From Clostridia bacterium (lineage in GTDB: Bacteria; Bacillota; Clostridia; Christensenellales; Aristaeellaceae): 64,000 nt of DNA. The translations under genes were made by a program, and so were the position numbers. Below are positions 8,737 through 26,603 of this stretch, in pieces (within the stretch, counting starts at the first letter, position 1; each line of letters starts with the position of its first letter). Below the pieces are notes generated by a model. That model saw only the letters and a program-made list of their open reading frames with translations. It was not told where the DNA came from and did no database searches. The stretch covers positions 1 through 64,000 of the forward strand of contig JAFSKN010000047.1 of assembly GCA_017448975.1 (NCBI GenBank). The letters are read 5' to 3'.

Positions 8737-8780
8737 GCCATAGGATTAATCGAGTGTCATGGATTATTGAGGAGGGGAAA

Positions 8781-9473
8781 ATGATGAGCAAAAACATTTT
8801 AGGTGTTATTCTTTCTTTTTTATATTTTTTTCTAATTATTTTTTTATCAAAACTGTTATTTAAAAAAAGAGGTGAAATGGCTCGCAAATTTGTACATATT
8901 ATGATCGGAAATTGGTGGCTAATTTTATTGGCACTCATAACAGAGACAATATGTGCATTAATCGTTCCAACAGCATTTGTTTTTATCAACTATTATTCTG
9001 TTACACGCGACCATAAAAATGGACTGCTAGCAAATTTAGAACGCAAAAAGGGAGAAAAAGCTTTTTCGTCATATGGTTTGATTCTTTATCCGATTTCTTT
9101 GGTAATTATGGTGGTTTTTTCCTATGTTCTTACAAACAAACACTATCTTGGAGGGGTAGGGCTTATTGTTCTTGCATATGGAGATGGTTGCGCCGCATTG
9201 ATAGGGAAAAAATGGCCATATGGCAAATACTGCGTGGGACGTGCGAAAAAAACCTTTTCGGGATCACTTTCTATGTTCCTTATTTCATCTATCATCCTAT
9301 TGGTATATTTATCAATTATTGTGGGGTTTCCAATTGGAGAAATCCTCAGTACCATCTTTTTGACGGCTACTTTATCGACGGTTGCTGAAGCGATTACGCC
9401 AAATGGTTTTGATAATATTTCCGTTCCAATAACAGCATTAATGACTTATTTATTTGGGTTATATTACCTTTAA
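8781..9473 (+). CDS. Polytopic SEC59/VTE5-like (dolichol/phytol-kinase-type) membrane protein
   Basis: The 230-residue protein has about six or seven hydrophobic segments and the signature motifs of CTP-dependent lipid kinases. These are ARKFVHIMIGNWW (about residues 33-45), AYGDGCAALIGKKWP (about 134-148) and a KKTFSGS motif (about 157-163). Family members phosphorylate dolichol, phytol or diacylglycerol using CTP. The start is set by GAGGAGGGG five bases before ATGATG; a GTG at 8754 lacks such a site. It follows the nucleotidyltransferase by 44 bases, so the two are probably one transcript. Together they suggest nucleotidyl activation and phosphorylation of a lipid or head group; the pathway is unknown. 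Confidence 0.7.
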   Translation: MMSKNILGVILSFLYFFLIIFLSKLLFKKRGEMARKFVHIMIGNWWLILLALITETICALIVPTAFVFINYYSVTRDHKNGLLANLERKKGEKAFSSYGLILYPISLVIMVVFSYVLTNKHYLGGVGLIVLAYGDGCAALIGKKWPYGKYCVGRAKKTFSGSLSMFLISSIILLVYLSIIVGFPIGEILSTIFLTATLSTVAEAITPNGFDNISVPITALMTYLFGLYYL

Positions 9474-9592
9474 TGGTAAAAACACCCATGCTATTTCATG
9501 ACTGCTGTGCAGCAACAGCCCTCCAATATCATTGAAAGTCAAATACTACTCAACTAATGGAATGGTCTCATCAGGTCTTTCTCTCTACATCG

Positions 9593-11542
9593 TTATGATA
9601 TACTCTGGGCTTTAATCTCGTCTATTATTTCAAATCCATAATCCATTAACATTTTGCGTTCCATTTCAGTAATTGGCGCGCTAACAGGATTTGGAATTCC
9701 TAAAGCCAACAAATGTTTTGCTCTGGAAAATGCTACATACGCAAGTCGTTGGGCTTCATCTATATTGCTTTCTTGATTAATGAACCAATCTTTCCAATAC
9801 GCTCCCGATCTATTGTCTCCACGAGAATAGCTTGATACGAATAATACGGAATCCAGACTCATGCCCTTGCAGCCGTGGATTGTCTCAATTTGTATCTTCG
9901 TCTTATTCTTATTTTTCAAGGAAAATGATTCTACAACTAAATCATTCTTAATACCGTTTTTTAATCGTTTTAAATCAGCTTTGCCAAGATAAGAAGATGA
10001 AACCCCATCCAAACATTTTCTCAGAGCCTTTTTCCAAATTTCCCAATTTTGAGATAAATCCAATACACATTCATTTTCAACAATAGTCTTCTGAATTAAT
10101 ATAATAATGTTAATCCAAGTTGATGTATCAATTTCTTCTGGCTTATATAAATTATTAGAATTTCCATGAACGCTTTTAGGGAAATAAGATTGTTGTATCG
10201 CGCGTGCCAGTATTTTAATTCTCTCTTGGAATCCATCCAGAGATTCATCATCAGTCAAAAAAACAAAATGCGCATAGTCTTCAATAATGTTGTCTGATAA
10301 ATCCCCTGCCTTCCTACCTAGTAATTTATCTTTCCCAGCATTATTCCTAACGATTATTCTGCAATTATTTTCCTCTATTCCTTTCTGTTCAAGGATACTG
10401 TGATATAGTTGCACAAGGTCTTTCTCCTCATTTTTGCGATAAAGAAACACCAGCAATGGTTTCTCTGTCATTTGGTTTCGCATGCCTACTATATGTTTTT
10501 TCCCTTGAACAATCTTGATAGAAGCATTAACAATGCTCTGATTGCTTCTAAAGTTTTCGTTCAGATTCATCTCTATCAGTTCGTTGCTTTTTATGAAAGC
10601 TTTCGTGTCTTCGATATCTATTTTCCTGAATTCATAAATAGCTTGATCTAAATCTCCGACAAGGTGAACCTTAGTTCCCTGTTCTCGCAATAATGACAGA
10701 ATCTTCAACTGAGGAAGAGATAAATCCTGGCATTCATCGACAATGATTAAGGGATATCTTTTAGCAATTATTCTTGTTATTTCAACATTGCGTTTTAGCA
10801 GAAGATATGATAATATTTCTACATCCTCATAAGTAAAAAAGCCGCTTTCCCAAAATTTGTTTTTAGTGTCACGAAGATCATTTTTCATATAATTTTTGTC
10901 TGATAGATAGGAATCAAATTCTTCTTTTCCTGATCGAGGAATCTGAGGGGTGTACACAAATTTTCTTTCTTTTATATCCCAGCAATATTGGTTTGCTGAA
11001 ATATGATTTAGCTTTTCCCCATAAGAATACTTCGTCTTATATGCATTTAGGAAGTCGCTTTTTGCATCATCTTCAACAATTCTTAGACGAGTATCATCCT
11101 TCCCATTTTCTCCATGTAAAGTAACAATTGATAAAAAAGGATTCGCTATATAACCATGCAGCCAGCTTGTAAATGTTCCAACAAAATGGGGATATTCTAT
11201 TCCATTAGGCGAAAATGAATTAATTCTATTTCGTATTTCATTTTCTGCAGAATTTGTAAATGTTAGTACAGCAATTCCAGAGTAAGGCTGCATCCACTTT
11301 TGGGTTTCATATGAATATTTTACGGCTATGACTTCTGTCTTTCCACTTCCAGGGCAAGCGTTTAAATATATGTTTTTATTAATATCTGATTCAACATAGT
11401 CAAGCTGTTTTTTAGTCAAGTGCAGTAGATTGCAATATCCATCTGCCATGCACTTATTTTTCAGCTTACCGTTACAGACACAGTATTGTTCAGGCATTGA
11501 ATCCACTCTACACAATACTGTCCCCAAAGAATCAACGCTCAT
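9593..11542 (-). CDS. gajB: UvrD/PcrA-like helicase, GajB-like
   Basis: This SF1A helicase has Walker A NACPGSGKTEV (about residues 61-71) and a DEXQ box VDECQDL (about 285). The late motifs are present, including QIETIHGCKGMSLDSVLF and AYVAFSRAK near the C terminus. Residues 11-37 contain five cysteines (C11, C21, C23, C31, C37) that could bind metal, which is not usual for this family. It starts one base after the GajA-like stop. This OLD-nuclease plus UvrD-helicase tandem is the Gabija / class 2 OLD arrangement. The 649-residue length is greater than the roughly 500 of described GajB. ATG 11542 is preferred over GTG 11551, which overlaps gajA. Confidence 0.8.
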   Translation of the reverse strand: MSVDSLGTVLCRVDSMPEQYCVCNGKLKNKCMADGYCNLLHLTKKQLDYVESDINKNIYLNACPGSGKTEVIAVKYSYETQKWMQPYSGIAVLTFTNSAENEIRNRINSFSPNGIEYPHFVGTFTSWLHGYIANPFLSIVTLHGENGKDDTRLRIVEDDAKSDFLNAYKTKYSYGEKLNHISANQYCWDIKERKFVYTPQIPRSGKEEFDSYLSDKNYMKNDLRDTKNKFWESGFFTYEDVEILSYLLLKRNVEITRIIAKRYPLIIVDECQDLSLPQLKILSLLREQGTKVHLVGDLDQAIYEFRKIDIEDTKAFIKSNELIEMNLNENFRSNQSIVNASIKIVQGKKHIVGMRNQMTEKPLLVFLYRKNEEKDLVQLYHSILEQKGIEENNCRIIVRNNAGKDKLLGRKAGDLSDNIIEDYAHFVFLTDDESLDGFQERIKILARAIQQSYFPKSVHGNSNNLYKPEEIDTSTWINIIILIQKTIVENECVLDLSQNWEIWKKALRKCLDGVSSSYLGKADLKRLKNGIKNDLVVESFSLKNKNKTKIQIETIHGCKGMSLDSVLFVSSYSRGDNRSGAYWKDWFINQESNIDEAQRLAYVAFSRAKHLLALGIPNPVSAPITEMERKMLMDYGFEIIDEIKAQSIS

Positions 11543-11543
11543 C

Positions 11544-13478
11544 TTATTCACCTATCTTTGCGAGGAAGTTAATGGCTTTACATATATATTGAGGAATATC
11601 AAATTTCATTTCCTCCTGTTTTGACAGTTTTTCAGCAAGTAACTGCGCAAACAATCCTTTGCCCATGTAGTCTGATTCAATTTGTTCAAGGATACTTGCA
11701 GCCATTTCCGGCTCATCAATCGTTTCTTCTTTAGCAATTCGAGTTATATAAGACTCTAACTGCTCTTTTATAGACCCATCAGTCGGAATAGCTTCCAACA
11801 GGATATTCAACATTATTTGTGCATTACACTTATTTTCTATTGACAGATCATATTCAAAAGTTTTCTTATTCACATATACACGGCAATTATCTGTCATAGC
11901 GGATACTTGTTTTCCAAACCACAGCTGCGGATTATTTCCTTCAACATCGTCATCGAGTGAAGGCTTTATTTTCTTTGCCGGATCGTTGTCTGTCAATACC
12001 GCACACCTGATATTTATACGGCTCGTAACCTCGTACTCTCCATTGCTAAGACGAGTTTTCTTTCTTAATTCTGTTATCTTCTTTGTATAGTTTTCTTTCG
12101 TTTCTCCAGCAACTCGTTCCGGGAGCAATATTTTATAACCATTATATAGCTGAAGGAAATAATGGAAATAGATTCCGTTCATGTTAATAACTGATATACC
12201 TGCTTCTTCCAAAGAAGATATGCTACAAGCGCCTTCTGCTTTCTTTTTGCTTAAATACCTTTTTGCAAGTATTGGGATTAAAATGGCTTCCCCAATTCCT
12301 TCAACAAACAGATTTCCTTTTGAAAAAAGCAAAGCGGTCTTTGTTGCATCGAGCCATCTATTCAAAAAACGGCTTGCGGAACATTCCATCCCGCAATCAA
12401 ACAGAGAAGTAATACTGCAACTACCATCAACTCTATTAAATGATATAATTTTATCTATAGGAACGCTTGCGGCAATCAGTGGTGAATGGGTGGAGATTAT
12501 AACTTGAATTCTACATTCATCCGTTTGTTGTTGTAAATATTTCAAAAGCTTAATTTGGAGTTGTGGATGCAAATGAGCTTCCAATTCCTCGATTAGGAGA
12601 ATTCGAGGTGTTGTATATTTATCTTTCAAGCCTTCAAATTCAGCAAGAATCGTGGCAATATAAATCAAATTATTATACCCCAAGCTATTCTCAGCTAAGT
12701 TTCGGAACCCATCTGTTCCCGCTTCTGAGAATAGAATTTGTAAAGATTCAATGATTCTTTCATAAGATAGCGTATTAAACTGTATCTGTGTTTTCTGCCC
12801 ATACACGCTTCCTGCGGCATTTTGAATACTATCATTAATAAGCTTATTTGCTTTGGCAATTTCTTCTTTCCCAGCAGCTTTTTCGTTAAATGCTTTCAAA
12901 TCATCTTCTAATGGCATGAGTTCTCCGTTTTTCCGCTTTTCTTTTAGTAAATCAGCAGACAGATTTGCGATAAAACGAGCCAGCCTTGAGCCCCTTCCAG
13001 TTCTTAGATTTCTTTCAGCGTCGCGAAGGGCAGGCAAATAAACGCATTGGATATCATTCAATGGTTCACTATCGAAAATACTGTTAGAAGAATTCCCACC
13101 CCATCGTTTTTGATTATACCTATTTCTGTTATTCAATCTATTCTGTACTTCCAGATTCAGTTTGGCGTTAAAAGAATTATCCAGCCATGTAAGATATTCT
13201 ATCTTTTGTTCCTCAGACAAATCTGAAAAAATGCCGGTAATAGAGAGCCGATCAGCTCCGTGCAAATCTGTACCATTATTATTGTTTGAAAAGTCTTCTT
13301 CCGTAATTCCTCTTCTTGAAAATTCGTTTTCATTCAACAATGCTCGTATTGCATCAAGTACGGCGCTCTTGCCAGAACCGTTTTCGCCCACAAGCAAATT
13401 TAGCCCCTTCTGAAAGGATACTTCTACCGGCTGAGAAAACAAACGAAAATTCTCAATGAATACTTTTGAAAGATACAT
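11544..13478 (-). CDS. gajA: OLD-family ATPase-TOPRIM nuclease, GajA-like
   Basis: The 644-residue protein has an ABC/SMC-type ATPase followed by a TOPRIM nuclease. Walker A is GENGSGKS (residues 31-38), the signature-like SLGYNNL is near 265 and Walker B LLIEELEAHLHP is at 294-305. TOPRIM acidic residues are E393 (FVEGIGEA) and the DxD of LTDNDP (about 496-500). This domain order and the downstream UvrD helicase are those of Gabija, in which the GajA nuclease is inhibited by nucleotides and activated when phage replication depletes them. The start has AGGAGAGGAAAA upstream. It is longer than the described GajA (about 580). It may be independently transcribed or the tail of the larger defence operon (51-base gap). 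Confidence 0.82.
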   Translation of the reverse strand: MYLSKVFIENFRLFSQPVEVSFQKGLNLLVGENGSGKSAVLDAIRALLNENEFSRRGITEEDFSNNNNGTDLHGADRLSITGIFSDLSEEQKIEYLTWLDNSFNAKLNLEVQNRLNNRNRYNQKRWGGNSSNSIFDSEPLNDIQCVYLPALRDAERNLRTGRGSRLARFIANLSADLLKEKRKNGELMPLEDDLKAFNEKAAGKEEIAKANKLINDSIQNAAGSVYGQKTQIQFNTLSYERIIESLQILFSEAGTDGFRNLAENSLGYNNLIYIATILAEFEGLKDKYTTPRILLIEELEAHLHPQLQIKLLKYLQQQTDECRIQVIISTHSPLIAASVPIDKIISFNRVDGSCSITSLFDCGMECSASRFLNRWLDATKTALLFSKGNLFVEGIGEAILIPILAKRYLSKKKAEGACSISSLEEAGISVINMNGIYFHYFLQLYNGYKILLPERVAGETKENYTKKITELRKKTRLSNGEYEVTSRINIRCAVLTDNDPAKKIKPSLDDDVEGNNPQLWFGKQVSAMTDNCRVYVNKKTFEYDLSIENKCNAQIMLNILLEAIPTDGSIKEQLESYITRIAKEETIDEPEMAASILEQIESDYMGKGLFAQLLAEKLSKQEEMKFDIPQYICKAINFLAKIGE

Positions 13479-13528
13479 GGCATTTTCCTCTCCTGGGCAT
13501 CGCCTGTCTGTATATTACTCCAAATATT

Positions 13529-16500
13529 TCACTCGTCAAAACTATAGTCATCAATATGAAGCGTTCTAAGGTTCTCCGTCACTGTCCTGACCGTGGGAAC
13601 GGGCGTCCCGTTAGGCATATCCGCTTCCACTTCAAGGCGAATCCGGACATTCGCCCCATCCACCTGCATCAAATGGTTGATGACTTCATCCATCAGGCGG
13701 CTGACATCCTTATTGACGCGGATAGTATCGATGTCCGCTGTCATATAGAACCGTTTATTCTTAAGCGTTTCGGGTTTCGGATTGACGGGAGGAGTGACAG
13801 GATCAACAGGCTGTACAGGAGAGACCGGATTGACAGGCAGGTTTACATGATCCGGGCTGTCTGGCCGTTCCGGAACGCGGGACGCTTCGGCGGCAATCTG
13901 TTTCAATGCAGCCACTTGTTTTACGATATAGCCGCTTCGATCCGCAAAAGGAATCTGACAGTGATACTTTAATCCGATAAATCTACCATCGGAAACACTG
14001 TCTGCATAGGAAAAGTATTCATCGCTATTCACGCCGGTTTGAACAGCGTCCGCAAGCACTTCAAAACTGACGAGCCTGGGCAGATAACAATAAGTGCAAA
14101 GCTGCCGCCACAGATCGCCGATATTTTTGCTGTCGCTGTCGCCCCAAAGCAGCTTATCCATTTCCATCAGCAGCAGCGCAGGAGCCCATTTTCCGATCAA
14201 TTGTTCATTCTGATCCATTTTCCGTGCGGCCTTAGTAACGATGGTGTCATCGCCGCCCCGGATGCTGTAAGTCTGCCATACGATTTCACTCTTGCTGACT
14301 TCCAAATCAATATAGGGAACCAGCAGCCAGCAATAGGTTTCCCGAATGCGATCCTCCATGGTGCGGTCGTACATGCGAAGCATATTGCCGGTTTCCCGGT
14401 TCTGGGCCGCGTCAAGGTTCAAGTCGTCCTTTTCATTCTCGATGGACTGCCATGCCAGAAAATGCTTGGCGGCATCCTTCAAGGAGGGCATGGTATTCAC
14501 ATCGGGGGCAATAAAGGTCAGCATATTGCGGTAAAGGCGCGGCGATTGTCCCCGGTTATTGAGGATGTCCAGCGCCGCCTGAATCGCGTGGTCTCCCGGC
14601 GCGTTGGACTTATACGTCGCGGAAACAGGCAGAATAACGAGGCCCACGTCCTGGTCGTCGGATACGTCGGCGGAGCTGGCCGGATTGATGTGCAGACGGC
14701 TGAACGGGCGCTCCTTGCGTATTTTCCGCAGACGGCGCTCAATTTCCATTTCCACGTTCTCCTTGGACTGTTGGCTGGCCCGGTCCTCGGCGGTCTTGCG
14801 CAGAGTGGGACGTGTATCATACCAGAAGCGATCTCCGGAGGAATTGGTGTACAGGTAAGTCAGACTGGTTTGCAGTGTGTTCAGTGCGTCGTTGAACGTA
14901 GCGATATTCTCGCCGGGCTGAATGGTGCCCAGACGGATACGGGAGGCTTCCAGCCCCCGGACAGACTGCTTCCGTTCACTGGGCGCGGAACCTAACATGA
15001 TGGTTCTGGCAACACGGCGGCAGGCCATCAACTGGCCGAAGCGAGACGTGTTCTGATCCTTCAAATAGGGGATAGAATCCTTGCCGTCCACCTCATGATC
15101 CACGATGGCATTCCAGTTATCCCTCACGTGCCGGGTCAGTTCATCCCGGACGGCAGGCACGTCCAGCGTCATGGAGCCGGGCATGATCATCAGGCCCGCG
15201 TCCTGATTCATCCACAAATCATGAATCACAGCAGCCATCAGTCGCAGCACGCCGCGCGTTTTCTGGAAATGCTCGATGGTAGCCCAATCCTCATACAGCC
15301 GATCAAAAACTTCCGGGTGAATCGGGTAGCAGGACCGCATGCGGGAAAGATAATCCACTTCCTTCGCCTCGATGGGAAAATCAGAGGCATTATCCTGATA
15401 CATCTGACTGAAAGCCACGCAGACCTGATCCCGCTTGGCCTCATCCTTGCAATTCTGGAACAGGCGGCGGCGCACGATTTCAAAGCCCTCGTTGGCGGCG
15501 ACTGGCTTCCAGATGGATTCCATACGGCCAAAGGTATGCTCGATAGCGGCCAGCGCTTCTTTACCGCCGCCTTCTCCCACCTCGATTTCGCTTTCGGGGA
15601 TGGACGCCACCACCAGACTGTTTTCACTGGCGCGGGCAGCTTCTGTAAGTGACTGAATGAAGGTGATCAGGCTATCAAAGGAACCGGCGGGCAGCCCTTC
15701 CTTGTGCCACATATTTTTCGCGTAGGCCACCAATTCGTCGATCAGAATCACGCAGGGACCGCAGGCATTGAACAAATCGATCAATGCCTTGGAACCGGGC
15801 GCGACGCCCTTTTTATCTGCTTCCTTGACAATGTCGTACAGCTTGGGCACGCCGGAATCCACCGCTAACTGTGCCGCCATTTCTCCCCAAAGCGTGTTGA
15901 TGGTCACGCCGGGAAGCTGTGGTTCACGGCGGCTCCTGGAGGGATCGAGGGCGGTGCCCACCAGCACGGCCACACGGCAAATGGGCGGGATTTTCACTTC
16001 CGCCGCATCCAAAACTGCTTTCAGGCTGGCCGCCTTGGCAATAGGCGCTTTTCCGCGCAGCAAATGATACAGCGCCAGCATGCTGTGCGTTTTGCCGCCG
16101 CCAAAGGCCGTCTTTAACTGGATCACCGGTTCCCCATCCTTGCCGGAAACCCGGCGCAGAGCCTGCACCAGCAGGCCCTTTATGCCTTCGGTCACATAGG
16201 TGCGGGAGAAAAACTCCAGGGGGTCTCTGTATTCATACGCGCCTTCACCCCGCGCCACCTGGGCCAAGTCAGCGGCGAACTCCGCTTTTTTATATCGGCC
16301 TTGGGCCACGTCCGGGTGCGGTTCCATCACATTGCGCCAACTTGGCAGACCGGTCACAGGCGTGTTCTGCATCACCCCCGACGTTTTCTTGGCAGCTTCC
16401 GCCGCCGTGTTCACAGCGTTCATAGAACCCTGTTCATTGCCATAACGCAGGATACGGATCAGCTTTTGCAGCGCTTCCGTTGTTTCGCCGGTGGTGTCGA

Positions 16501-16909
16501 TTTTATCCGCCAGCAGAGACATGGTATCCAGTGCCCGTTCCGTTTCCCTGTCGGTGAAATCGGTTCCGGTAAAGTGCGCCCAGGTGTTCCGGGCGTTTTT
16601 GATTTCCTTGCACCAGCTCCGCGCATTGGCGGGAAGCCGGTATTTGAACAGATTCGGCCAATGAAGGTCGATCAGGTTCAGACAGGCTGTAATGTCCATA
16701 CTGTCCTGACGTTCCGCATAATCGGCGCTGACAGACAGTTTTTCCGCGTCGCGCTCATTAAACTCGGATAAAACGCGGAGAACGCCGTCCTGCCACCATT
16801 GATCGTTGATTTTATATTCCGGGACGCTTTGAAGCTGTTGCAGAATATAACCAGCCAGCGGTTCCCGTAAGCTCTGGAACGCTTCGCCGATAATGCTGTG
16901 GTTTGTCAT
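13529..16909 (-). CDS. DUF499 P-loop ATPase with N-terminal Swt1-type HEPN domain
   Basis: The 1126-residue protein begins with a helical domain resembling Swt1-HEPN that includes RNTWAH at residues 107-112, the R-x4-H motif of HEPN ribonucleases. The ATPase core follows: Walker A TAFGGGKTHS (about 268-276) and Walker B-like CVILIDELVAYA (about 390). The C-terminal region has a proline/valine-rich linker around 1030-1050 and then a small domain. DUF499 proteins occur in anti-phage operons with DUF1156 methyltransferases, and a related ATPase (BrxC/PglY) is part of BREX. GGGAGG precedes the start. Whether the HEPN part cleaves RNA is untested; the motif is complete. Confidence 0.82.
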   Translation of the reverse strand: MTNHSIIGEAFQSLREPLAGYILQQLQSVPEYKINDQWWQDGVLRVLSEFNERDAEKLSVSADYAERQDSMDITACLNLIDLHWPNLFKYRLPANARSWCKEIKNARNTWAHFTGTDFTDRETERALDTMSLLADKIDTTGETTEALQKLIRILRYGNEQGSMNAVNTAAEAAKKTSGVMQNTPVTGLPSWRNVMEPHPDVAQGRYKKAEFAADLAQVARGEGAYEYRDPLEFFSRTYVTEGIKGLLVQALRRVSGKDGEPVIQLKTAFGGGKTHSMLALYHLLRGKAPIAKAASLKAVLDAAEVKIPPICRVAVLVGTALDPSRSRREPQLPGVTINTLWGEMAAQLAVDSGVPKLYDIVKEADKKGVAPGSKALIDLFNACGPCVILIDELVAYAKNMWHKEGLPAGSFDSLITFIQSLTEAARASENSLVVASIPESEIEVGEGGGKEALAAIEHTFGRMESIWKPVAANEGFEIVRRRLFQNCKDEAKRDQVCVAFSQMYQDNASDFPIEAKEVDYLSRMRSCYPIHPEVFDRLYEDWATIEHFQKTRGVLRLMAAVIHDLWMNQDAGLMIMPGSMTLDVPAVRDELTRHVRDNWNAIVDHEVDGKDSIPYLKDQNTSRFGQLMACRRVARTIMLGSAPSERKQSVRGLEASRIRLGTIQPGENIATFNDALNTLQTSLTYLYTNSSGDRFWYDTRPTLRKTAEDRASQQSKENVEMEIERRLRKIRKERPFSRLHINPASSADVSDDQDVGLVILPVSATYKSNAPGDHAIQAALDILNNRGQSPRLYRNMLTFIAPDVNTMPSLKDAAKHFLAWQSIENEKDDLNLDAAQNRETGNMLRMYDRTMEDRIRETYCWLLVPYIDLEVSKSEIVWQTYSIRGGDDTIVTKAARKMDQNEQLIGKWAPALLLMEMDKLLWGDSDSKNIGDLWRQLCTYCYLPRLVSFEVLADAVQTGVNSDEYFSYADSVSDGRFIGLKYHCQIPFADRSGYIVKQVAALKQIAAEASRVPERPDSPDHVNLPVNPVSPVQPVDPVTPPVNPKPETLKNKRFYMTADIDTIRVNKDVSRLMDEVINHLMQVDGANVRIRLEVEADMPNGTPVPTVRTVTENLRTLHIDDYSFDE

Positions 16910-16966
16910 TTGATGTTTCCTCCCTGGCTGATGTATCGTTCATCATATGAGTGCCGTGGTCACGCT

Positions 16967-17320
16967 TTATGAATCCTCGTCATGATCTAACAGGTCAAGC
17001 AATTGGCTCCGCAAAGTTGGAATATCTTCGGTCATGGTTTGCCACATGGTTTTATATTTCGTTTTTTCATAATCATGCACATAGATATTCCGCATACCGC
17101 GAATAGCGCGCCATGGAATTGAATCGTTGGCCGCAAGCGTTTCTTCCGTAAGCCGTGCCACCAGTTCACCAATTTGCACGATGCAGGTACTTACCGCGTA
17201 TTGATATGCCCGATCTTGCTCATAGGCTTCTTGGCTTTTTCCGAAACGATTCATCAACATATCAATTTCATTGCAATAATATATAATTTTTTGAAGAATA
17301 ACCTGATCACTATGCTTCAT
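16967..17320 (-). CDS. hepT: HepT-like HEPN toxin (DUF86)
   Basis: This is a small helical HEPN ribonuclease of the MntA/HepT toxin-antitoxin family. The catalytic motif RNIYVHDY (R-x4-H-x-Y) is at about residues 81-88 of 117. The start (MKHSD) overlaps the end of the MntA-like gene by 11 bases, the usual coupled order of antitoxin then toxin. In known pairs MntA adds AMP groups to the tyrosine of this motif and silences the toxin; that tyrosine is present. The pair sits between the methyltransferase and the DUF499 ATPase, so it may stabilise or guard the defence operon. Confidence 0.88.
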   Translation of the reverse strand: MKHSDQVILQKIIYYCNEIDMLMNRFGKSQEAYEQDRAYQYAVSTCIVQIGELVARLTEETLAANDSIPWRAIRGMRNIYVHDYEKTKYKTMWQTMTEDIPTLRSQLLDLLDHDEDS

Positions 17321-17603
17321 ATAAAACCACCTCATCCTTCTTGATGGTATGCAGAAATTCTTTATCTTCTATGCCGTCCATGACCACATCCACATGGCAG
17401 CCAAATTCATCCTCCAAATCCAGCACAAAGCCCATGTATTGAAATAATCCGCGCATTTTCCCTTCGTCGATCAGGAAGTCCAGGTCGCTGTCGTCCCGCG
17501 CTTCCCCACGGGCATAGGAGCCGAACAGCCCCAGCCGTTTGATACCGTATTTTTTCGCCAGAGGAACGGACTTTTGTTTGATTTCTTCCATGGTAAAGCA
17601 CAT
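17310..17603 (-). CDS. mntA: MntA-like minimal nucleotidyltransferase antitoxin
   Basis: The 97-residue protein carries the minimal nucleotidyltransferase motif GSYARGEARDDSDLDFLID (G-S-x10-D-x-D, about residues 29-47), with both metal-binding aspartates. It should neutralise the adjacent HepT by AMP transfer. GAGGAGGT precedes ATG 17603 at good spacing; an upstream in-frame ATG at 17636 and an internal one at 17591 are less likely. The gene lies 91 bases after the DUF1156 stop in the same direction. Confidence 0.85.
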   Translation of the reverse strand: MCFTMEEIKQKSVPLAKKYGIKRLGLFGSYARGEARDDSDLDFLIDEGKMRGLFQYMGFVLDLEDEFGCHVDVVMDGIEDKEFLHTIKKDEVVLYEA

Positions 17604-17694
17604 AACGAAACACCTCCTCGTGCTTTGATAATTCATTATACAGAATTGGTCTTCAAATCACAAGATATGCCTGGAATTGGGTCAAGGTAAACTT

Positions 17695-20535
17695 TTACAG
17701 TGTTCCCAAATCCATCGCCATCTGTTCCGGCGCTTCCGCCTTGATGGAAGCCGCCATGGAAAGGATTTCCGGCCAGGACACCACCAGATTGTTATAGGCG
17801 TAGCCCTCCTGAGCCCAACCCTTGCGCTCGCAGACGGTATACAGGCGATAGGCTAAAGCTTTGGCGTTTTCGGCGTTGCTGCTGTACATGAACGCAAGCT
17901 CCCTGGCGCAGCCCTTCACGCCCTCTTTTTCAAAGCGGTGGGCCAATTGCTGGGTCAGCAGCCAGATACATTCTTCTTTTCGGTTGATGTTATCCGGGAT
18001 TTCCTCCCGGGTCAGCAGGCGGACGCGGCCTTTGGCGGCTTGCAGTACGCGCCGGTCCGCCAGGGCCTGCAAGGAAGTGTTCTTGGCGGTCGCCAGAACC
18101 TGCGCTTCACCAAAGGCCATTTCATTGAACCCGAACTGCTGGAACAGATCGACGCAGAACCGGCTGCCGGAATCCATTTCTCCCTCCTGCTCGTGATAGA
18201 AGGCGTCCAATTCCTGATTGATGATTTGCAGGGCGGCGCGGACGGTCATGGGCTTGCCGTCCGCCTCCAGTACGCTCTTATAGCGGCTGAACACGCCGAT
18301 GCCGGGGCCGATGGCGCTTTGGGCCAAGTCCACAGGGGCGATGTTGGCGCTTTGCAGCTTTTCCAGGGCGGGCCGCATTTCCCGATGCAGAGCGTTGATG
18401 AACTCCCGGCGGGTGACGCTGCGGGCGGTTTCCTCCCGCTTGCGGCAGACCAGGACGATGGAGGAGGCCAAGGCGTTGGTGCCGCTGGCAATTTGGCGAA
18501 CAGCCATCTCTGTACGCATTGGCCATGTTCCTGTTATTGCAAACCCAGAACGAATAATTGCGGACAGCATTGTTTCCCAACCTGATGATGCAGTAATATC
18601 GTCTGAATTTGTATCGTTTTGCTTGAACGCATAATAAACTGTAACCGGTATATCTTCATGAGCGTATTTGTGCATTTGTACGCAAGTATTAAACATCCCG
18701 TCTTCAAAAAACTCTTTTGCTTCTGCCATACCACCTTTAAACCGATAAGGCGTTGCAACTAATTCTTCTGCTTTCGGGGTAAGCATTGTTCTAAAAATGC
18801 AAGGGAATGTGTCTTTAAGCGTTTGCCGCATCCATACATAGAAAAAATCAGATAAATCAGCATAACCAATATTATCATAATATGGGGGATCAGTAGAAAT
18901 CATTATTGATCTTAGCCCACAGTCGCTTTGAGCATCAAATTGTTTTGCATGTCCTGTATAGTTTGAACAAGGAAACATCTTAATGGCTTTATTCACCCAC
19001 TCAAGCATATTATCATAGCTGCCAGAAGAAGTGCAAAATGGATTGCATTCAGCGTAATCCCACACCATTGGGAGGGCTTGGCGGCCAAATGTATTCCTCA
19101 TTTTTTCACCGCTTGAATGCCATGAACAGATACTTGAATGATAATCTACCAATTTGTCCACAACAAACCCTAAATATATCCCAATCGCTTCTCCATAAGC
19201 ACGTGCCCCTGCTCCATTATCTTCAATTCCTATATGGTCATTAAACATACCACTGTTTTCTGCGTCTTTTTCAGCCTGTATCTGCGCTTCTTTTACGAGA
19301 GCGGAAAAGGTAGTCAATGCCTTCAATTGGCGACCGGTAAACAGATGCCCCCATGTAGTTAATCCATAAGCAGAGCAAACACCTCCTGTCACCATAGCGC
19401 GGGTAGGCGTACTGCCGTTTAAAAAAGTACTGCGAATATTGTTCGCTTCTTCGGTATCATTTTCATTTATTCCAAGTATTTCGTGTTCTCCATTGGGAGA
19501 AAAATAAACTCTCCCATTTTTTCCCTGTGCAACGATTGCCATTAGCCGCTGTGACAATTTTCCGGCTTTTCCTTGGTCTTGTATATACTCTCTTTGAATG
19601 GGCGCTTTTGTTAAACAGCAAACAAAGTCCTTTGCTTTGCCAGCTTTTGTTCCATATGCTTTTATTGCTTCTTCCTGCTTGGAAATTGATCCTGACTTGA
19701 CTTCAAATCTCCAACCATCTTTTTCATTTGAATCTTCCACAATTTCTACCCATGCTTTATTGCCTTTTTTGGTTGAAAGCATTTGAGAAGATATTAGCGG
19801 TACATATGCACCGTGCGCTAACGGATTGGGAGAAACAACTGTTCTTGCCCAAATCCAAGCAATTACTGTGTATTCATTTCCGTCATTATCCGTTATTTTA
19901 GGATACAATTCACCGATACGCTCAAAGGCTTTTTTCTTCATCCATTCGCCGTAATAGCGCACATCCTCCGCCAGCCCCGCCGCGCCGGTCCAGCCCTCTC
20001 CTTGCTCGCTGCCCATCTGCTTTTCCCGAATCTGCGGGTTCACCGGGGGTTGATTGGCGAACTTGGGCGGTATCTCGATCATGGCCTTGTTGATCATCAC
20101 GGCCACAGGGTTCAGGTCGTGGGCGTGGGCTTCCAGCCCCAAGCGCTGGGCCTCTAAGGGAATGGCCCCGCCCCCCGCGAAGGGGTCCAGCAGCGCCGGG
20201 GGATTGTTGCCCGTGGATTTCATGATCTCCGCCTTGGCTTCCTCCAGCACCAGGGGATTATTGCTGTTTTCCCATACCACCAGCCGGGACAGAATATCGA
20301 ACAGACGCTCCCGCTCCTTCTGCTGCGCTTCCTCCGTGGGGAACTGCTCCGGGTGGCTGGAAGGATCGTCCACCAACGACGACCAGATCACAGCCCGGGC
20401 CGTCGCCAAAGGCCGCCGTGCCCACCATAAATGCAGGGTGGACGGGTGCCCGTGACGAATGGACTTTTCCCGCGCCGATTCCGCGTTGATCTTTTCCAAC
20501 GGCAGAGCGACTTCGATTAACTTCTTCGTATACAT
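17695..20535 (-). CDS. DUF1156 N6-adenine-type DNA methyltransferase
   Basis: The 946-residue protein has the DUF1156 N terminus (LPLEKINAESAREKSIRHG, HLWWARRPLATARAVI), the SAM-binding motif I DPFAGGGAIP (about 117-126) and the catalytic motif IV DPPYYDN (about 546). DPPY methylases usually modify adenine N6. Family members occur in anti-phage operons with DUF499 ATPases and SNF2 helicases, presumably marking self DNA. About 20535-19955 and 18535-17695 are GC-rich like the neighbours, whereas about 19955-18535 (residues roughly 195-667) is clearly AT-rich. The middle, likely including the target-recognition part, may have been swapped. The reading frame is intact throughout. Confidence 0.85.
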   Translation of the reverse strand: MYTKKLIEVALPLEKINAESAREKSIRHGHPSTLHLWWARRPLATARAVIWSSLVDDPSSHPEQFPTEEAQQKERERLFDILSRLVVWENSNNPLVLEEAKAEIMKSTGNNPPALLDPFAGGGAIPLEAQRLGLEAHAHDLNPVAVMINKAMIEIPPKFANQPPVNPQIREKQMGSEQGEGWTGAAGLAEDVRYYGEWMKKKAFERIGELYPKITDNDGNEYTVIAWIWARTVVSPNPLAHGAYVPLISSQMLSTKKGNKAWVEIVEDSNEKDGWRFEVKSGSISKQEEAIKAYGTKAGKAKDFVCCLTKAPIQREYIQDQGKAGKLSQRLMAIVAQGKNGRVYFSPNGEHEILGINENDTEEANNIRSTFLNGSTPTRAMVTGGVCSAYGLTTWGHLFTGRQLKALTTFSALVKEAQIQAEKDAENSGMFNDHIGIEDNGAGARAYGEAIGIYLGFVVDKLVDYHSSICSWHSSGEKMRNTFGRQALPMVWDYAECNPFCTSSGSYDNMLEWVNKAIKMFPCSNYTGHAKQFDAQSDCGLRSIMISTDPPYYDNIGYADLSDFFYVWMRQTLKDTFPCIFRTMLTPKAEELVATPYRFKGGMAEAKEFFEDGMFNTCVQMHKYAHEDIPVTVYYAFKQNDTNSDDITASSGWETMLSAIIRSGFAITGTWPMRTEMAVRQIASGTNALASSIVLVCRKREETARSVTRREFINALHREMRPALEKLQSANIAPVDLAQSAIGPGIGVFSRYKSVLEADGKPMTVRAALQIINQELDAFYHEQEGEMDSGSRFCVDLFQQFGFNEMAFGEAQVLATAKNTSLQALADRRVLQAAKGRVRLLTREEIPDNINRKEECIWLLTQQLAHRFEKEGVKGCARELAFMYSSNAENAKALAYRLYTVCERKGWAQEGYAYNNLVVSWPEILSMAASIKAEAPEQMAMDLGTL

Positions 20536-20577
20536 TTTAAATATCCCCTATTCATTCCAATAAACTGATTTGATCTG

Positions 20578-21858
20578 TTATCTCATCCGTTTTGGAGGCA
20601 AACCTGCTAAAGCAAGCAAATCATTTCTATCTTGCGTAGCAAGCCAAATTAGAAAGCCCTTATCCACCACATGTAACTTAAGATTGGATTCATCATAGTC
20701 TAAGATAATAGGTTGAATTGACTTTGCTATCTGTAATGAAGAAACTGCTTTTAGAGCCTGAGTAACATTTCCAGGGTTTAGGTTTCTACCATTAGGATGA
20801 ACAGATTCAATAGTTGTTCTTATGGTACGATATGATAGTCCCCTGGATAATTCATTGATCCCAGAAGTGAGAACAGGATATAATAACCATTTATGCATTT
20901 CCAACGCTGTTTCTTGAAAACCTGTCGCATATTGTGAAAGAAATGTATTATAACGACCAGATTGTTCTTGAACAATTCTTCTGACGATTTCCTTTGCTGA
21001 AATGTTGTATCCAACACGTGTTTTTTGCTCCTGAGTAGCTAAAACTCCTTTTTCTTCACAAACAAGGTGGCAAGCTTCCTGAACAATATATACATTACCA
21101 GAAGCTACTTCAAGAAGTTCATTAATAAATCCTTCTGCAAATGAGATATTTAAACACGTTGCACCCTCTTGAATAACACGCTTTAAGTCATCATCATTCC
21201 ACAAGTCAGCATTGATCGGAATAATCCTTCCCGTAAGATCTCCGTTGTATATTACTAACTTGTTTTCATCGAGCCATACACCTACGATGATAAAGCAAAG
21301 GTCAGAACTCTCGTGAAAAGCTTTTAACTCAATGGCAAAGTCTCTTTGCGTTTCAGTTTTCAAATAATGAAAATCTTCCAGAACAATATACTTATGGAAT
21401 TCAATATGATCCAATGCTGCTATTATATCATTTGTATCATTCAAATCTATTTCCAAAGGTTGAAATGATTCTTCCTGCCCAAGAGTATTTTCAGTTTCAT
21501 ATCCTTTCGATGCGGTATATAACTCAGGAATTTTACCTGAAAACGTTGCGGTAATCTTTGTTTTTCCGCTAAAAGAAGTTTTTGAGCTGGTATTTATTTC
21601 ATACCCTGCCCGTTTAAGTATATTTGTGTTTAAATCGGATATAGTCCATCTATTACTGCATTGAATAAGAATATATTCTGATTCTTCTAAACAATGCTTC
21701 CTTAAGCATGTCTTACCTTGTTTTGAACTGCCAAAAATAGTTATATGCTTTTTCCGATTTAGATTATTCCGTAGTTTATTATCAACATTATCACGTTCGA
21801 CATAATTGATTGGTATATCTCTTGAAAGGCCATACACGTCTTCCAGTTTATAGTTCAT
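20578..21858 (-). CDS. AAA/STAND-like ATPase of the methyltransferase-helicase system
   Basis: The 426-residue protein starts with an ORC/AAA_22-like P-loop: Walker A FGSSKQGKTCLRKH (about residues 41-54) and a Walker B-like IVLEDFHYLKT (about 160). A helical region follows, which may include a winged helix at the C terminus. AAAGGAGTG precedes the ATG, and an in-frame start 27 bases upstream overlaps the helicase stop. It lies between helicase and methyltransferase genes in one operon. It could be the ATPase of a helicase-methylase-ATPase (Hma-like) trio, or a sensor. It is AT-rich, unlike the flanking helicase gene. Confidence 0.65.
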   Translation of the reverse strand: MNYKLEDVYGLSRDIPINYVERDNVDNKLRNNLNRKKHITIFGSSKQGKTCLRKHCLEESEYILIQCSNRWTISDLNTNILKRAGYEINTSSKTSFSGKTKITATFSGKIPELYTASKGYETENTLGQEESFQPLEIDLNDTNDIIAALDHIEFHKYIVLEDFHYLKTETQRDFAIELKAFHESSDLCFIIVGVWLDENKLVIYNGDLTGRIIPINADLWNDDDLKRVIQEGATCLNISFAEGFINELLEVASGNVYIVQEACHLVCEEKGVLATQEQKTRVGYNISAKEIVRRIVQEQSGRYNTFLSQYATGFQETALEMHKWLLYPVLTSGINELSRGLSYRTIRTTIESVHPNGRNLNPGNVTQALKAVSSLQIAKSIQPIILDYDESNLKLHVVDKGFLIWLATQDRNDLLALAGLPPKRMR

Positions 21859-21874
21859 TTTTTTCACTCCTTTG

Positions 21875-24800
21875 TTAATGTCCACTATCTAATTCTTCCA
21901 GAGTCCCAATCCTTATCAGATCGGTAATTTCATAATTCACGCTTGTCGCTCCCATATCCGGTGCGGTGTTGAATGGCCGTTTCAGATAGACAGCGTGGGT
22001 TTGGTCGCCGTCCACTTCCACAATTGCCAGAACAAATTCTTCCGGCTTATTCAGGGCCGTCAGGATTTCGTTCTTTGTTGCTGTAATAGTTGTTGCTCCC
22101 TTTTGCCGCCCTTTCACCTCGATGAACCGCAGGCAGTTTCCGCCATTCCGGTGATTCTCCGGCACGGTGGATTCGATATCATAGCCCACTTTTTCCATGC
22201 TCACGTCCCGGGAGATGTTGCCCATGGCCTGTTCATGCTGCATGACACAGTTCATGGCTGCCTTTTCTACCGCCGTCCTGTTCTGGCTGAACAAATCTCC
22301 CGTGTTGGGCTGGCCGGTGAGCCGGTTCAGCAAACCTTGGGGAATGATCAGTGCGCCGCCCGCAATCACCGGCGGGCAGGGACTGATGTGCTTTTCCTCG
22401 TCCAGTTCGCTGAGCCGTTTTTCCAGCCGGGCCTGCAAATCATCCGCCCGGCGCTGGGCGTTATCGGAATTCAGCTTCGGATTGCCTTTTCCTGCCGCTT
22501 CTTTCTGACGAAGATCGGAAGCGCGGTAGTCCCAATACTGTATTTCTTCCGTCAGGCGGGTCTTGACGGCCTTCGCCACCTTGTCGGCGTATTCCTGCCG
22601 CCGTTTCCGCACTTCCTGATAATGTACCGGCACGATATCCGTCATAGCGTAATGAATGGCGATGTCCTCGATATTGCCCGACAGCCAGGCTTGCGTTTTG
22701 GCGAATGCCAGTGCCGCCTTGGTTTCGTCCTCCGTGGCGGCCCGATAATCCAGGTACGGTGCGTACCCGGCTTTGCGCGCCTGGCCGGATTCATCGATCT
22801 CCACAAATTGCAGGCTCTTGTCCACAACGCGCTGTGCGCCGTTGGGGAGCCTGTGGCCGTCCTGGAAAGCGTCCTCAATATAGAACAGCAGCAGGGGCTG
22901 ATCTCCGGGATCATTCTCGTCGATCATCACCGCCCCGCGTTTCAGTACGTCCGCTCTCTGCTCCAGCGTCAGGTCGATCACGGCTTCCAGCAAGGGATGG
23001 CCGGGGCAAAGCTGATCCGCTACCGGCAGGCCGGGAACATGGACATACTGCTTATCAAAGCATACCCGCTCATACCGGGGAGCCACCGGAACGCCGAAAC
23101 CGATCTGCTGATCCCGGGAGCGAACCTTGTAAGGCACATTGGAAATCTCCCAGCGGCCCTTTTCCCGTTTGCGGATCGCGCCGCCCAGGGCCTTGAACGC
23201 TTCGATGAAGAACGCTTCCACAAAATGAGGCTGGAGCTTGTGGGCTTCCATGCGCTCCATGTCCTCGCGGATCATGTTGACCCGATGAACGTCCATTACG
23301 TCGTCGGTGAGCGCTTCCTCGTTCATCAAATCCAATAGCTTCTGCCGGTCCAGGCTGCGATCCACCACCTGCTGCATCCGGGCGCGGGTGGCGGGATCAT
23401 TGCCATAGCGAATCGCCTCCACCAGCAAATCGCGCAGAGGCTTGTTGTCGAAGGTGACTTTGCCTAAAATATCGAACACGCGGCCGGAAAGCGCCGCCTT
23501 TTCTTCTTCCAGCTTCTCAAATAAGCGCTGGAAAACCTCGCCTTCCCGGGTTTCCTGGGAAACCAGGTTCCACAGATAGCATACTTCCGTCTGTCCGATG
23601 CGGTGGATGCGGCCAAAGCGCTGTTCCAGACGATTGGGATTCCAGGGCAGGTCGTAATTCACCATCAAGTGCGCCCGCTGGAGGTTGATGCCTTCGCCCG
23701 CCGCGTCGGTGGCGATCAGGATGCGCACGTCTTTATCCTGCTTGAAGCTGGTTTCGATCTTCCGGCGGTCATCCCGCAGCATCCCGCCGTGGATGGTGAC
23801 CACCGCTTCCGGCTTGCCGAAAAGCGTGCGGATCTTATCCGCCAGATAGTTCAGGGTGTCCCGGTGCTCGGTGAAGATGATCAGCTTTTCCCGGCTGCCG
23901 TTTTTCTCATACATGAGCTCGTTTTCCTGGAGCAGGCTGGAAAGCTCGTCCCATTTTCGATCCTGGCCGCTGGCACGCACTTCGTTGGCCATCTGTTCCA
24001 GCCGGAGCAGCGTGTCGATTTCCGCTTCCAGTTCGGAAATGGTACGAGCGGCGGACGCCTGATCCGCCACCTGTTCTTCTTCCTGCTCCAGTTCATCCCC
24101 CGGCATTTCATCCAGATCATCCGGATCATCCGCGACGATCTCCTGAACGCGCTTTCCAAGCTTTTCTTCCGCGAGACGGTTTTGCAGCCGTTCCCGCCTG
24201 CGGCGAAGGGATTGATAAATCGCTTCCGGCGAAGACGCCAGACGGCGCTGCAGGATGGTCAGGGCAAAACCGACAGTAGACCGCTGCTGGCCGTCCAAAT
24301 GATCGGCGCGGTTGAATTCATCCTGTACGTAGGATGTTACCGCCGAATAAAGTCTTTCCTCGGCGTCGGAAAGATCATAATTCACCGTGTAGGCGATGCG
24401 CTCCGGGAACAGGGGCGTGCCGTCGAACTTGAGCAAATCTTCCTTGACCAGACGGCGCATCACATCGCTGACGTCAATGGACTGATTGCTGGTGCGCAGC
24501 GCGCCTTCAAAGCGATCCTGATCCACCAGGGACATGAACAACTGAAAGTCTTCTTCCTTGCCATTATGGGGAGTAGCCGTCAGAAGCAGGAAATGCCTCG
24601 TCAGGCCGGAAAGCAGGCGGCCCAGCAGGAAACGCTTTGTATATTTCGCTTCGCCGCCCCAAAAGGACGCGGACATCTTGTGCGCTTCGTCGCAGACGAT
24701 CAAATCCCATTCGGAAATTTTCAGCTTTTCCTGCAATTCCTCGTTTCGGGAAAGCTTATCCAGACGCGCAATGGCATAATTCACTTCCGTGAAGGCGTTG

Positions 24801-25378
24801 CCGGAAACAGCCGATTCAAGGCGGTCATTGGTTAGCAGTTCAAAACGCAGATGAAACTTGGAATAAAGCTCATCCTGCCACTGCTCGCATAGATTGCCAG
24901 GCGCAACGATCAAGCAGCGTTTCAGGTCGCCGCGTATGATCAGCTCCTTCAGCAGCAGGCCGGTCATGATGGTTTTGCCAGCGCCAGGGTCGTCCGCCAG
25001 CACATAGCGCAGAGGCAGACGGGGAAGCATTTCTTCATAGACCGCGCTGATCTGGTGCGGCAGCGGATCAATGGAGGACGTATGCACCGCCAGATAGGGA
25101 TCAAATAAATGGGCAAGCTGAATCCGGTACGCTTCGGAAACCAGGCGCATCTTGTCTCCGTCCACGTCGAAACTCCATGGCAGGCTTTTTGATACAATCT
25201 CCATGGAGGATTCATCTTCCCGATAAATCACACGCTCGCCAGTCTGTCCGCGATTGGTTTTATAAAACACTTCCAGGCACGCGGTTCCGTGCCATTTCGC
25301 CGTGACAACGGTGACCGGTTCGTGGGGGATGATGCCAAGAACGATGCTGCCATCGGTTAAGTCTTCAAGCCTTGCCAT
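21875..25378 (-). CDS. SNF2/DEAH-type helicase with C-terminal DUF3883 domain
   Basis: The 1167-residue protein is a superfamily 2 translocase. Its motifs are Walker A DDPGAGKT (129-136), DEAH (about 227), LLTATPHNGKEED (about 270) and the C-terminal arginine-finger motif FGRIHRIGQTE (about 590). A coiled acidic insert occupies about 395-450. The end carries a DUF3883-type nuclease-like domain (GYDIES, then RFIEVKGRQ, about 1070-1105). DrmD of DISARM and other phage-defence helicases share this architecture. It is the first gene of the minus-strand operon and is preceded by GGGAAGGG. It probably tracks along foreign DNA for the ATPases and methylase downstream. Confidence 0.85.
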   Translation of the reverse strand: MARLEDLTDGSIVLGIIPHEPVTVVTAKWHGTACLEVFYKTNRGQTGERVIYREDESSMEIVSKSLPWSFDVDGDKMRLVSEAYRIQLAHLFDPYLAVHTSSIDPLPHQISAVYEEMLPRLPLRYVLADDPGAGKTIMTGLLLKELIIRGDLKRCLIVAPGNLCEQWQDELYSKFHLRFELLTNDRLESAVSGNAFTEVNYAIARLDKLSRNEELQEKLKISEWDLIVCDEAHKMSASFWGGEAKYTKRFLLGRLLSGLTRHFLLLTATPHNGKEEDFQLFMSLVDQDRFEGALRTSNQSIDVSDVMRRLVKEDLLKFDGTPLFPERIAYTVNYDLSDAEERLYSAVTSYVQDEFNRADHLDGQQRSTVGFALTILQRRLASSPEAIYQSLRRRRERLQNRLAEEKLGKRVQEIVADDPDDLDEMPGDELEQEEEQVADQASAARTISELEAEIDTLLRLEQMANEVRASGQDRKWDELSSLLQENELMYEKNGSREKLIIFTEHRDTLNYLADKIRTLFGKPEAVVTIHGGMLRDDRRKIETSFKQDKDVRILIATDAAGEGINLQRAHLMVNYDLPWNPNRLEQRFGRIHRIGQTEVCYLWNLVSQETREGEVFQRLFEKLEEEKAALSGRVFDILGKVTFDNKPLRDLLVEAIRYGNDPATRARMQQVVDRSLDRQKLLDLMNEEALTDDVMDVHRVNMIREDMERMEAHKLQPHFVEAFFIEAFKALGGAIRKREKGRWEISNVPYKVRSRDQQIGFGVPVAPRYERVCFDKQYVHVPGLPVADQLCPGHPLLEAVIDLTLEQRADVLKRGAVMIDENDPGDQPLLLFYIEDAFQDGHRLPNGAQRVVDKSLQFVEIDESGQARKAGYAPYLDYRAATEDETKAALAFAKTQAWLSGNIEDIAIHYAMTDIVPVHYQEVRKRRQEYADKVAKAVKTRLTEEIQYWDYRASDLRQKEAAGKGNPKLNSDNAQRRADDLQARLEKRLSELDEEKHISPCPPVIAGGALIIPQGLLNRLTGQPNTGDLFSQNRTAVEKAAMNCVMQHEQAMGNISRDVSMEKVGYDIESTVPENHRNGGNCLRFIEVKGRQKGATTITATKNEILTALNKPEEFVLAIVEVDGDQTHAVYLKRPFNTAPDMGATSVNYEITDLIRIGTLEELDSGH

Positions 25379-25497
25379 GTTTTTTCCCTTCCCGTTTTTG
25401 CGTAGGTATGTCTTCTTTCTGCTGCTGCCGCCGTTTCTTCCGCGTCAGGGGGGATTGCGCTTTCCGGCAGTAAAGTATCGATTGCTCATACACCATG

Positions 25498-25526
25498 ATT
25501 TTATCATAGTTTCTTCCCTGCAACAA
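25498..25526 (-). promoter_or_regulatory. Candidate promoter of the defence operon
   Basis: On the minus strand TTGTTG (25521-25526) and TAAAAT (25498-25503) are 17 bases apart, about 120 bases before the helicase start. An inverted repeat CAATGAC/GTCATTG at 25524-25530 and 25548-25554 overlaps the -35 side and could be an operator. The rest of the 234-base gap between helicase and regulator genes shows no ORF I support. Confidence 0.45.
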
Positions 25527-25612
25527 TGACTTTTTTTCAGTAAGCAGGTCATTGTCCCATGGATTGCGGCACTTCTTTTGTATCCGCTGGATAGGGTTAA
25601 AAATACGTTATC

Positions 25613-26491: not shown

Positions 26492-26542
26492 ATACTTCCC
26501 ATTCCTTCTGTCAGTTTTCCCTGAAACAACAGCCCCATTCAT

Positions 26543-26571: not shown

Positions 26572-26576
26572 CAGAA

Positions 26577-26598: not shown

Positions 26599-26603
26599 TC
26601 AGC

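Follow-up and report, generated by a model that had tools for sequence, protein, structure and literature searches.

An Hma operon with modules at both internal junctions, very probably carried beside Gabija by a serine-recombinase mobilisable element

Introduction

Does a run of eight defence-type genes on one strand of a Clostridia bacterium make up a single new system, or has it been assembled from separate ones? The run lies at positions 9593-25378 of the 64,000-nucleotide stretch analysed here (contig JAFSKN010000047.1 of GenBank assembly GCA_017448975.1, positions 1 to 64,000; hereafter the window), and a sequence-only reading had suggested that it could be a new multi-layer assembly. 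Our analysis leads to another answer. The locus is very probably an Hma operon, i.e., a restriction-modification (RM)-like system related to bacteriophage exclusion (BREX) and also termed Type-1 BREX-related (BR), with both of its internal junctions loaded with independent modules, and carried beside Gabija by a mobilisable element with a serine recombinase. Family matches and intact motifs speak for this reading, as do the tight state of the same junctions in some close relatives, the mosaic base composition, the occurrence of one of the modules (S59) without Hma elsewhere, the other cargo of other Hma operons, and published cases of embedding in Hma. Mobility is seen from empty sites, from a sister element with different cargo, and from the lack of an HmaA match at E 1e-100 in 59 other relatives.

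Gene content of the locus

The eight minus-strand open reading frames (ORFs) of 9593-25378 are spaced by 16-58 bp or overlap by 8-26 bp. Based on PADLOC, Pfam, and NCBIfam matches, the order of transcription is HmaA, a PDC-S59-type ATPase (S59), HmaB, MntA, HepT, HmaC, GajA, and GajB, as follows (G+C, guanine plus cytosine fraction):

21875..25378, minus strand: hmaA, SNF2-type helicase with C-terminal NOV_C/DUF3883 nuclease-like domain, 1167 aa; PDLC00659 E 0 over 1-1156, PF13020 E 1.3e-20 over 1037-1131; G+C 0.562
20578..21858, minus strand: S59, Cdc6/STAND-like ATPase between hmaA and hmaB, 426 aa from the likely start; PDC-S59 PDLC05049 E 1.4e-76, residues 10-414; G+C 0.348 (ORF 20578-21885)
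17695..20535, minus strand: hmaB, DUF1156 adenine-type DNA methylase, 946 aa; PDLC00660 E 0, PF06634 E 8.9e-32, DPPY; G+C 0.503
17310..17636, minus strand: mntA-like minimal nucleotidyltransferase (MNT; predicted antitoxin) between hmaB and hmaC; PF01909 (NTP_transf_2) E 6.8e-12, PDC-S09 E 3.3e-22, NF047752 E 1.1e-10, PDB 1wot E 1.1e-9; G+C 0.468
16967..17335, minus strand: hepT-like HEPN RNase (predicted toxin) overlapping mntA; PF01934 E 2.6e-19, NF047751 E 1.2e-7; G+C 0.407
13529..16909, minus strand: hmaC, Swt1-type HEPN fused to DUF499 AAA+ ATPase, 1126 aa; PDLC00662 E 0 over 188-1126, PF18731 E 1.9e-20 over 10-138; G+C 0.551
11544..13478, minus strand: gajA, Gabija OLD-type ATPase/TOPRIM nuclease; PDLC00091 E 4.3e-219, PF20469 (OLD-like TOPRIM) E 3e-11; G+C 0.370
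9593..11551, minus strand: gajB, Gabija UvrD-like helicase; PDLC00129 E 1.6e-178; G+C 0.345

The family matches of the Hma, Gabija, and S59 proteins span most of each chain. Moreover, direct reading of the translations revealed intact active-site motifs, these being RNIYVHDY in HepT, RNTWAH in the HEPN domain of HmaC, GSYARGEARDDSDLD in MntA, DPFAGGG and DPPY in HmaB, and FIEVKG in the nuclease-like domain of HmaA, along with Walker A in HmaA, HmaC, S59, GajA, and GajB. For S59, translation probably begins at 21858, with the methionine at residue 10 that matches its relatives, rather than at 21885. The G+C content is a mosaic, with 50-56% in the hma genes, 35-37% in S59 and Gabija, and 41% in HepT. 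A consensus scan of 9000-27500 returned 39 promoter-like sites, where 26.8 would be expected (sd 5.6), and 19 sites resembling terminators, where 21.2 would be expected. One promoter-like match, with 10 of 12 positions, falls at 17663-17635 in the gap between hmaB and mntA. Thus far, the sequence-only reading was accurate: the eight closely spaced minus-strand genes and their domains are all there, Hma, the MntA-HepT pair, and Gabija had been named correctly, and the embedding of additional modules inside hma is real.

The Hma core

Judged from its sequence, the core is a complete Hma system, alias Type-1 BR, and a standard HEPN-bearing member. The SNF2-type helicase, the DUF1156 methylase, and the DUF499 ATPase lie on one strand in the A-B-C order, the PD-(D/E)XK-like nuclease predicted for the C-terminus of the helicase is represented by the NOV_C domain with its FIEVKG motif, and the HEPN-DUF499 fusion that marks a subset of members is present at the HmaC N-terminus. 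A loose R/K-N-x3-5-H pattern occurs in this N-terminal region in 98 of 106 long HmaC proteins.

According to the excerpts of the published work available to us, to which all citations here refer, Hma was named by PADLOC in 2021, with 1,638 instances across 26 phyla (PMC8565338), and an operon of HEPN-DUF499 with a SNF2-DUF3883 helicase had already been noted in 2013 (PMC3710099). A 2026 paper has redefined Hma as the Type-1 DUF499-centred BREX-related system; it reports 1370 taxa in which DUF499 is fused to HEPN, as well as auxiliary nucleases (HEPN, OLD, Schlafen, and HNH) within or beside BREX and BR loci (PMC12839542). When compared with the Hma system of PADLOC (PMC8565338), hmaA, hmaB, and hmaC of the window are each matched at near full length with E 0, but HmaC has a HEPN domain ahead of the PADLOC match (from residue 188) and the operon has two modules embedded in it. 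The likeness to Type-1 BR (PMC12839542) includes the HEPN-fused DUF499 ATPase, the N6-type methylase, and the helicase with a C-terminal PD-(D/E)XK-like domain; we found no difference in the core, and the excerpts of that paper make no mention of an S59 ATPase.

Going by their families, HmaB would methylate adenines and so mark self DNA, HmaC and HmaA would form the machinery that scans for and cuts unmarked DNA, and the HEPN domain of HmaC may serve as a back-up RNase.

The embedded modules and Gabija

Both S59 and mntA-hepT sit between hma genes, and are in this sense Hma-embedded. S59, at the A-B junction (between hmaA and hmaB), has an overall fold similar to Cdc6/Orc1- and STAND-type ATPases, a resemblance drawn from a second look with VIA-align at the top chains of Foldseek, so that folds outside that list are possible. 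The S59 profile (A6) found no chain in the PDB at E 0.01, and our literature search found no paper that names PDC-S59. As a STAND-like ATPase, it might act as a sensor or signaller. Among IMG/VR viral contigs, all 59 distinct S59 loci (several of them near-identical, with 11 of the 70 fetched having been dropped as repeats of the same contigs) were without homologues of Hma, Gabija, or MntA-HepT, and S59 was also without Hma in the five genome loci and six plasmid loci that we read. Within the INPHARED phage set, S59 had no match at E 1e-3. One of the viral-contig loci (L142) has the look of a filamentous phage, judging by eye from a Zot-like neighbour. We also considered S59 as a fourth Hma subunit and rejected this, given that the other Hma loci compared here, many of them partial, lack it, save for a very distant relative in L164 (see below), and that it stands alone in the viral contigs.

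At the B-C junction (between hmaB and hmaC), the layout of the mntA-hepT pair is that of a type VII toxin-antitoxin: the MNT gene is located 5' of the HEPN gene and overlaps it, the GSx10DxD and Rx4-6H(xY) motifs are both present, and so is the tyrosine that follows the HEPN motif of HepT. Differing from known MntA-HepT, the pair resides inside hma, and its scores (41.3 for MntA and 31.6 for HepT) do not reach the NCBIfam equivalog cut-offs of 60 bits; we therefore call the two proteins MntA/HepT-like rather than certified orthologues. HepT had no match among PDB sequences. MntA would be expected to nucleotidylate and silence HepT, and with the antitoxin lost or blocked in infection, HepT would cut RNA and the cell would stop.

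Gabija begins 50 bp downstream of hmaC. Here, GajA (OLD ATPase-TOPRIM) adjoins GajB (UvrD helicase), the genes overlap, both subunits are matched at near full length, and there is no notable difference from known Gabija. It would provide a separate DNA-nuclease layer.

The mobile element

The vehicle of all eight genes is defined by the following features:

1785..29287, no strand assigned: mobile element of about 27.5 kb bearing all eight genes, with ~50-bp inverted ends; empty sites in L293 and L294
4307..6274, plus strand: MobA/MobL relaxase of the element; PF03389 E 1.2e-87
27443..29170, plus strand: large serine recombinase of the element; PF00239, PF07508, PF13408, PF14287
25613..26656, minus strand: HTH_3 plus DUF5071 gene upstream of hmaA; PF01381 E 4.5e-11, its DNA aligning in the sister element L295

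The ends of the element are inverted copies at about 1785-1834 and 29239-29287, with 45 of 50 positions identical; a repeat search at seed 14 and length 30 did not call them, and they are placed by other comparisons. In two genomes of the same genus, the left and right flanks directly adjoin, this being the empty site: L293 aligns to window positions 376-1808 and 29263-31600, and L294 to 376-1728 and 29301-31600. A third genome (G1221; L295/L296) has the same ends, relaxase, and recombinase, the shared backbone corresponding to window positions 1787-6278 and 25611-29285; both stretches align as two pieces, at 87-94% identity. The cargo of this sister element is different, and by eye consists of sugar uptake and glycosidase-type ORFs. 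From the shared backbone it follows that 6279-25610 is the cargo bay and that the HTH gene belongs to the backbone; we thus rejected the latter as Hma cargo, as it aligns in the backbone of L295, and HmaA finds no match in that genome at E 1e-100. At this same threshold, HmaA had no match in 59 other relatives, of which 28 share the genus, seven the family, and 24 the order of the source genome; several of these genomes are incomplete.

Elsewhere in the cargo bay, a plus-strand metallophosphoesterase-type gene (6467-7987, G+C 0.345) matches PDC-S60 and, at E 3.6e-41, an 'Effector' endonuclease model of PADLOC. This gene, the cytidylyltransferase-like 8209-8736, and 8754-9473 make up a convergent block of low-G+C cargo, possibly a further defence module.

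Comparison with other Hma loci

Our comparison pool comprises the window and 165 other Hma loci, namely 80 genome loci, 20 same-phylum regions, 26 viral contigs, 10 plasmids, and 31 regions from two other phyla, minus two duplicates (L117, on a contig shared with L045, and L189, on a contig shared with L096). Many are partial or located at contig ends, and most come from drafts or from contigs with unequal flanks. The genome loci are the best 80 of 582 relatives, and the sample leans toward close relatives of the window HmaB; for the same-phylum regions we selected from the top matches, and the plasmid loci were hand-picked (10 of 40 listed). We dropped six of the 166 loci for want of an HmaB of at least 300 bits, and of the remaining 160, the fetched stretch held no usable HmaA in 37 and no usable HmaC in 29. 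We then dropped, at A-B, six partial junctions and three with the genes on opposite strands, and at B-C, ten partial junctions and two with the genes out of order. Near-identical loci (e.g., L200/L202, L185/L215, and L176/L177) were kept.

The full eight-gene set was found in none of the 165 other loci, many of them cut by contig ends, and on this ground we rejected the idea of a single new system made up of the eight genes. None of the fetched flanks has GajA and GajB together. The sequence-only reading had named what would speak against its new assembly, i.e., no recurrence in other genomes, or parts that all match named systems protecting independently. As far as our comparison reaches, both are the case: the set did not recur, and PADLOC has a named family for HmaA, HmaB, HmaC, GajA, GajB, MntA, and S59 alike, with HepT matching Pfam and NCBIfam models. 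S59 also stood alone in all of the viral-contig loci. The parts had been read correctly, and a new conserved assembly is not supported.

With the window included, the junction measures at least 250 bp in 57 of 114 intact A-B cases and 38 of 119 intact B-C cases, and filled junctions recur across loci of many phyla. Among the 90 loci with both junctions intact, A-B is filled in 43, B-C in 28, and both in 19 (Fisher p 0.013, uncorrected for relatedness). Unfilled junctions are seen in the close relatives L032, L035, L037, and L043, where A-B measures 6-22 bp and B-C 13-19 bp.

Cargo in other Hma operons

Toxin-antitoxin or antitoxin-type genes were found at 14 of the 38 occupied B-C junctions, or in about 10 lineages after merging near-identical loci, and these are:

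Window: MntA-HepT
L096: MNT
L070: DUF433-DUF5615
L071: Phd/YefM-like, marginal (28.8 against a Pfam cut-off of 29.8), with HNH
L176 and L177: HicB, RelE/ParE according to annotation
L183: XisH-XisI according to the record annotation
L185, L186, and L215: small protein plus PIN
L201: MazE plus PIN
L200 and L202: MqsA-type (Pfam match in L200; L202 by similarity to L200)
L204: MNT plus HEPN-like (HEPN judged by similarity to L203)

The reading of XisHI as a toxin-antitoxin, and the labels SecB-like, MqsR-like, and Doc-like, are our own rather than database matches. In L200 and L202, the B-C cargo is a three-gene set, with the MqsA-type antitoxin and, by eye, a SecB-like chaperone gene, possibly a toxin-antitoxin-chaperone module; the 152-aa and 106-aa genes of L200 had no match among PDB sequences. 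In L096 (5393-5760), the B-C MNT is followed only by a short frame, by eye a truncated HEPN start, and the pair may be decaying. In L109, an MNT gene runs into the contig end.

Toxin-antitoxin types also occur at A-B junctions (an MNT-HEPN in L203, one PemK, and one DarT, the last two from the Pfam tally), and so a preference for B-C is not established (14/119 against an incompletely counted few of 114). When 2-5 A-B cases are assumed, the test gives p 0.003-0.054 with all loci counted singly and, once relatives are merged and the totals rounded, p 0.03-0.29. We also asked if such cargo compensates for a HEPN-less HmaC; this is not established either, as there was no clear link (4/20 vs 10/99).

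Other junction genes, whose proteins were annotated in part (some scanned singly or read from plasmid annotation), include Schlafen-type, OLD/AAA_21, HNH, RloB, DUF3644, Swt1-HEPN, and Macro proteins. The A-B tally covered 90 of 94 proteins of 70-420 aa, with 25 of 59 families shown, and NYN proteins made up five of the 90 scanned. Six A-B junctions hold a cluster of mostly 1400-aa proteins (one being 490 aa), of which the one scanned matches TmtA models and has a Sacsin domain. The A-B gene of L185 is matched by the PADLOC HEC-09 model (E 1.4e-95). In L047, L082, L149, L034, and L040, a second, shorter HmaB-like methylase (733-777 aa) lies between hmaB and hmaC.

Discussion

How, then, do the embedded modules relate to Hma? 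We consider that each of them probably protects alone, that the embedded genes probably share a transcript and are carried along with Hma, and that the modules are most likely autonomous, gaining from shared transcription and shared mobility. Several observations weigh against this. The close relatives L031, L033, L034, and L082 have one or both junctions filled, and the unfilled state is therefore not simply ancestral. Moreover, L164 has, 81 bp downstream of hmaC, an ATPase very distantly related to S59 (15% identity, E 1.1e-8), and hence ATPases of the S59 superfamily may not be entirely foreign to Hma. The draft state and unequal flanks of most compared loci, and the restriction of the genome scan to the best 80 of 582, tell against it as well. 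As a separate observation, L031 is the closest HmaB relative among those best 80, and its B-C gap of 1657 bp (12755-14411) contains a single same-strand ORF of 79 aa.

A less independent relationship would be one in which MntA-HepT, and S59, watch over Hma, such that phage inhibition or shut-off of Hma would let the labile MntA fall, free HepT, and cause S59 to signal, much as PrrC guards EcoprrI. This we judge to be quite unlikely. The PrrC precedent and the HEPN-RM pairs proposed in 2013 (PMC3710099) speak for it, as do DarTG2 within a type I RM operon (PMC12255303), the toxin-antitoxin or antitoxin-type genes at 14 of 38 occupied B-C junctions, and the joint filling of both junctions above expectation, yet toxin-antitoxins show no established preference for B-C over A-B, the loss of the HmaC HEPN domain has no clear link to this cargo, and S59 is mostly alone in viral contigs. 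A PrrC-like guard relation is possible, and the tests made here give it no support. Taken further, the Hma junctions might be selected docking sites where exchangeable toxin-antitoxin and STAND modules become coupled guards of Hma, with MntA perhaps also modifying, and S59 perhaps gating, the HEPN domain of HmaC, though we rate this very low. Alternatively, MntA-HepT could be addiction cargo, keeping the operon or element from being lost but without a role in phage defence, which we find conceivable if rather doubtful: the pair is inside a mobilisable element, several unrelated toxin-antitoxin types occupy the B-C junction in other loci, and the truncated HEPN start next to the L096 MNT fits decay of a pair once unneeded, but the window pair is located within hma and not close to the genes for mobility, and its antitoxin matches a PADLOC defence candidate, PDC-S09. 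It is unlikely, too, that the eight genes are chance neighbours from three or four systems piled up in the cargo bay and forming no operon. While Gabija has its own low G+C content and is not seen as a pair in the flanks of the other loci, and the sister bay holds apparent sugar-use genes, S59 and MntA-HepT are inside hma, the spacing is 16-58 bp on one strand, the frames are undamaged, and filled junctions recur in many phyla.

We thus favour an Hma operon loaded with autonomous modules, and such embedding has precedents. 'Hma-embedded candidates' (HEC) and PDC genes originate from a preprint by Payne et al. (2024, bioRxiv 10.1101/2024.01.29.577857) that worked by guilt-by-embedding, as described in papers citing it (PMC12988326, PMC11411939, PMC12255303). 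The wider point that Hma operons with inserted defence-type genes recur widely stands, and had already been published under that name. The window follows the same principle, with MntA and S59 matching PADLOC PDC-S09 and PDC-S59; its exact pair plus Gabija is in none of the 165 other loci. In addition, DarTG2 or TgvAB is found within type I RM operons, with both islands active against phages (PMC12255303, PMC11411939). The window likewise has a second defence module within an RM-type operon, though both the host operon and the modules are different ones.

Accordingly, the locus adds a new and well-preserved case to an arrangement already described. It offers a clean case of modular assembly, in which one mobile element, evident from its empty site, delivers an RM-like system, two inserted modules, and Gabija to a genus in which none of the 28 further genomes sampled shows a strong match to HmaA. 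It also provides a tractable cassette for the question of whether embedded modules merely ride with Hma or guard it.

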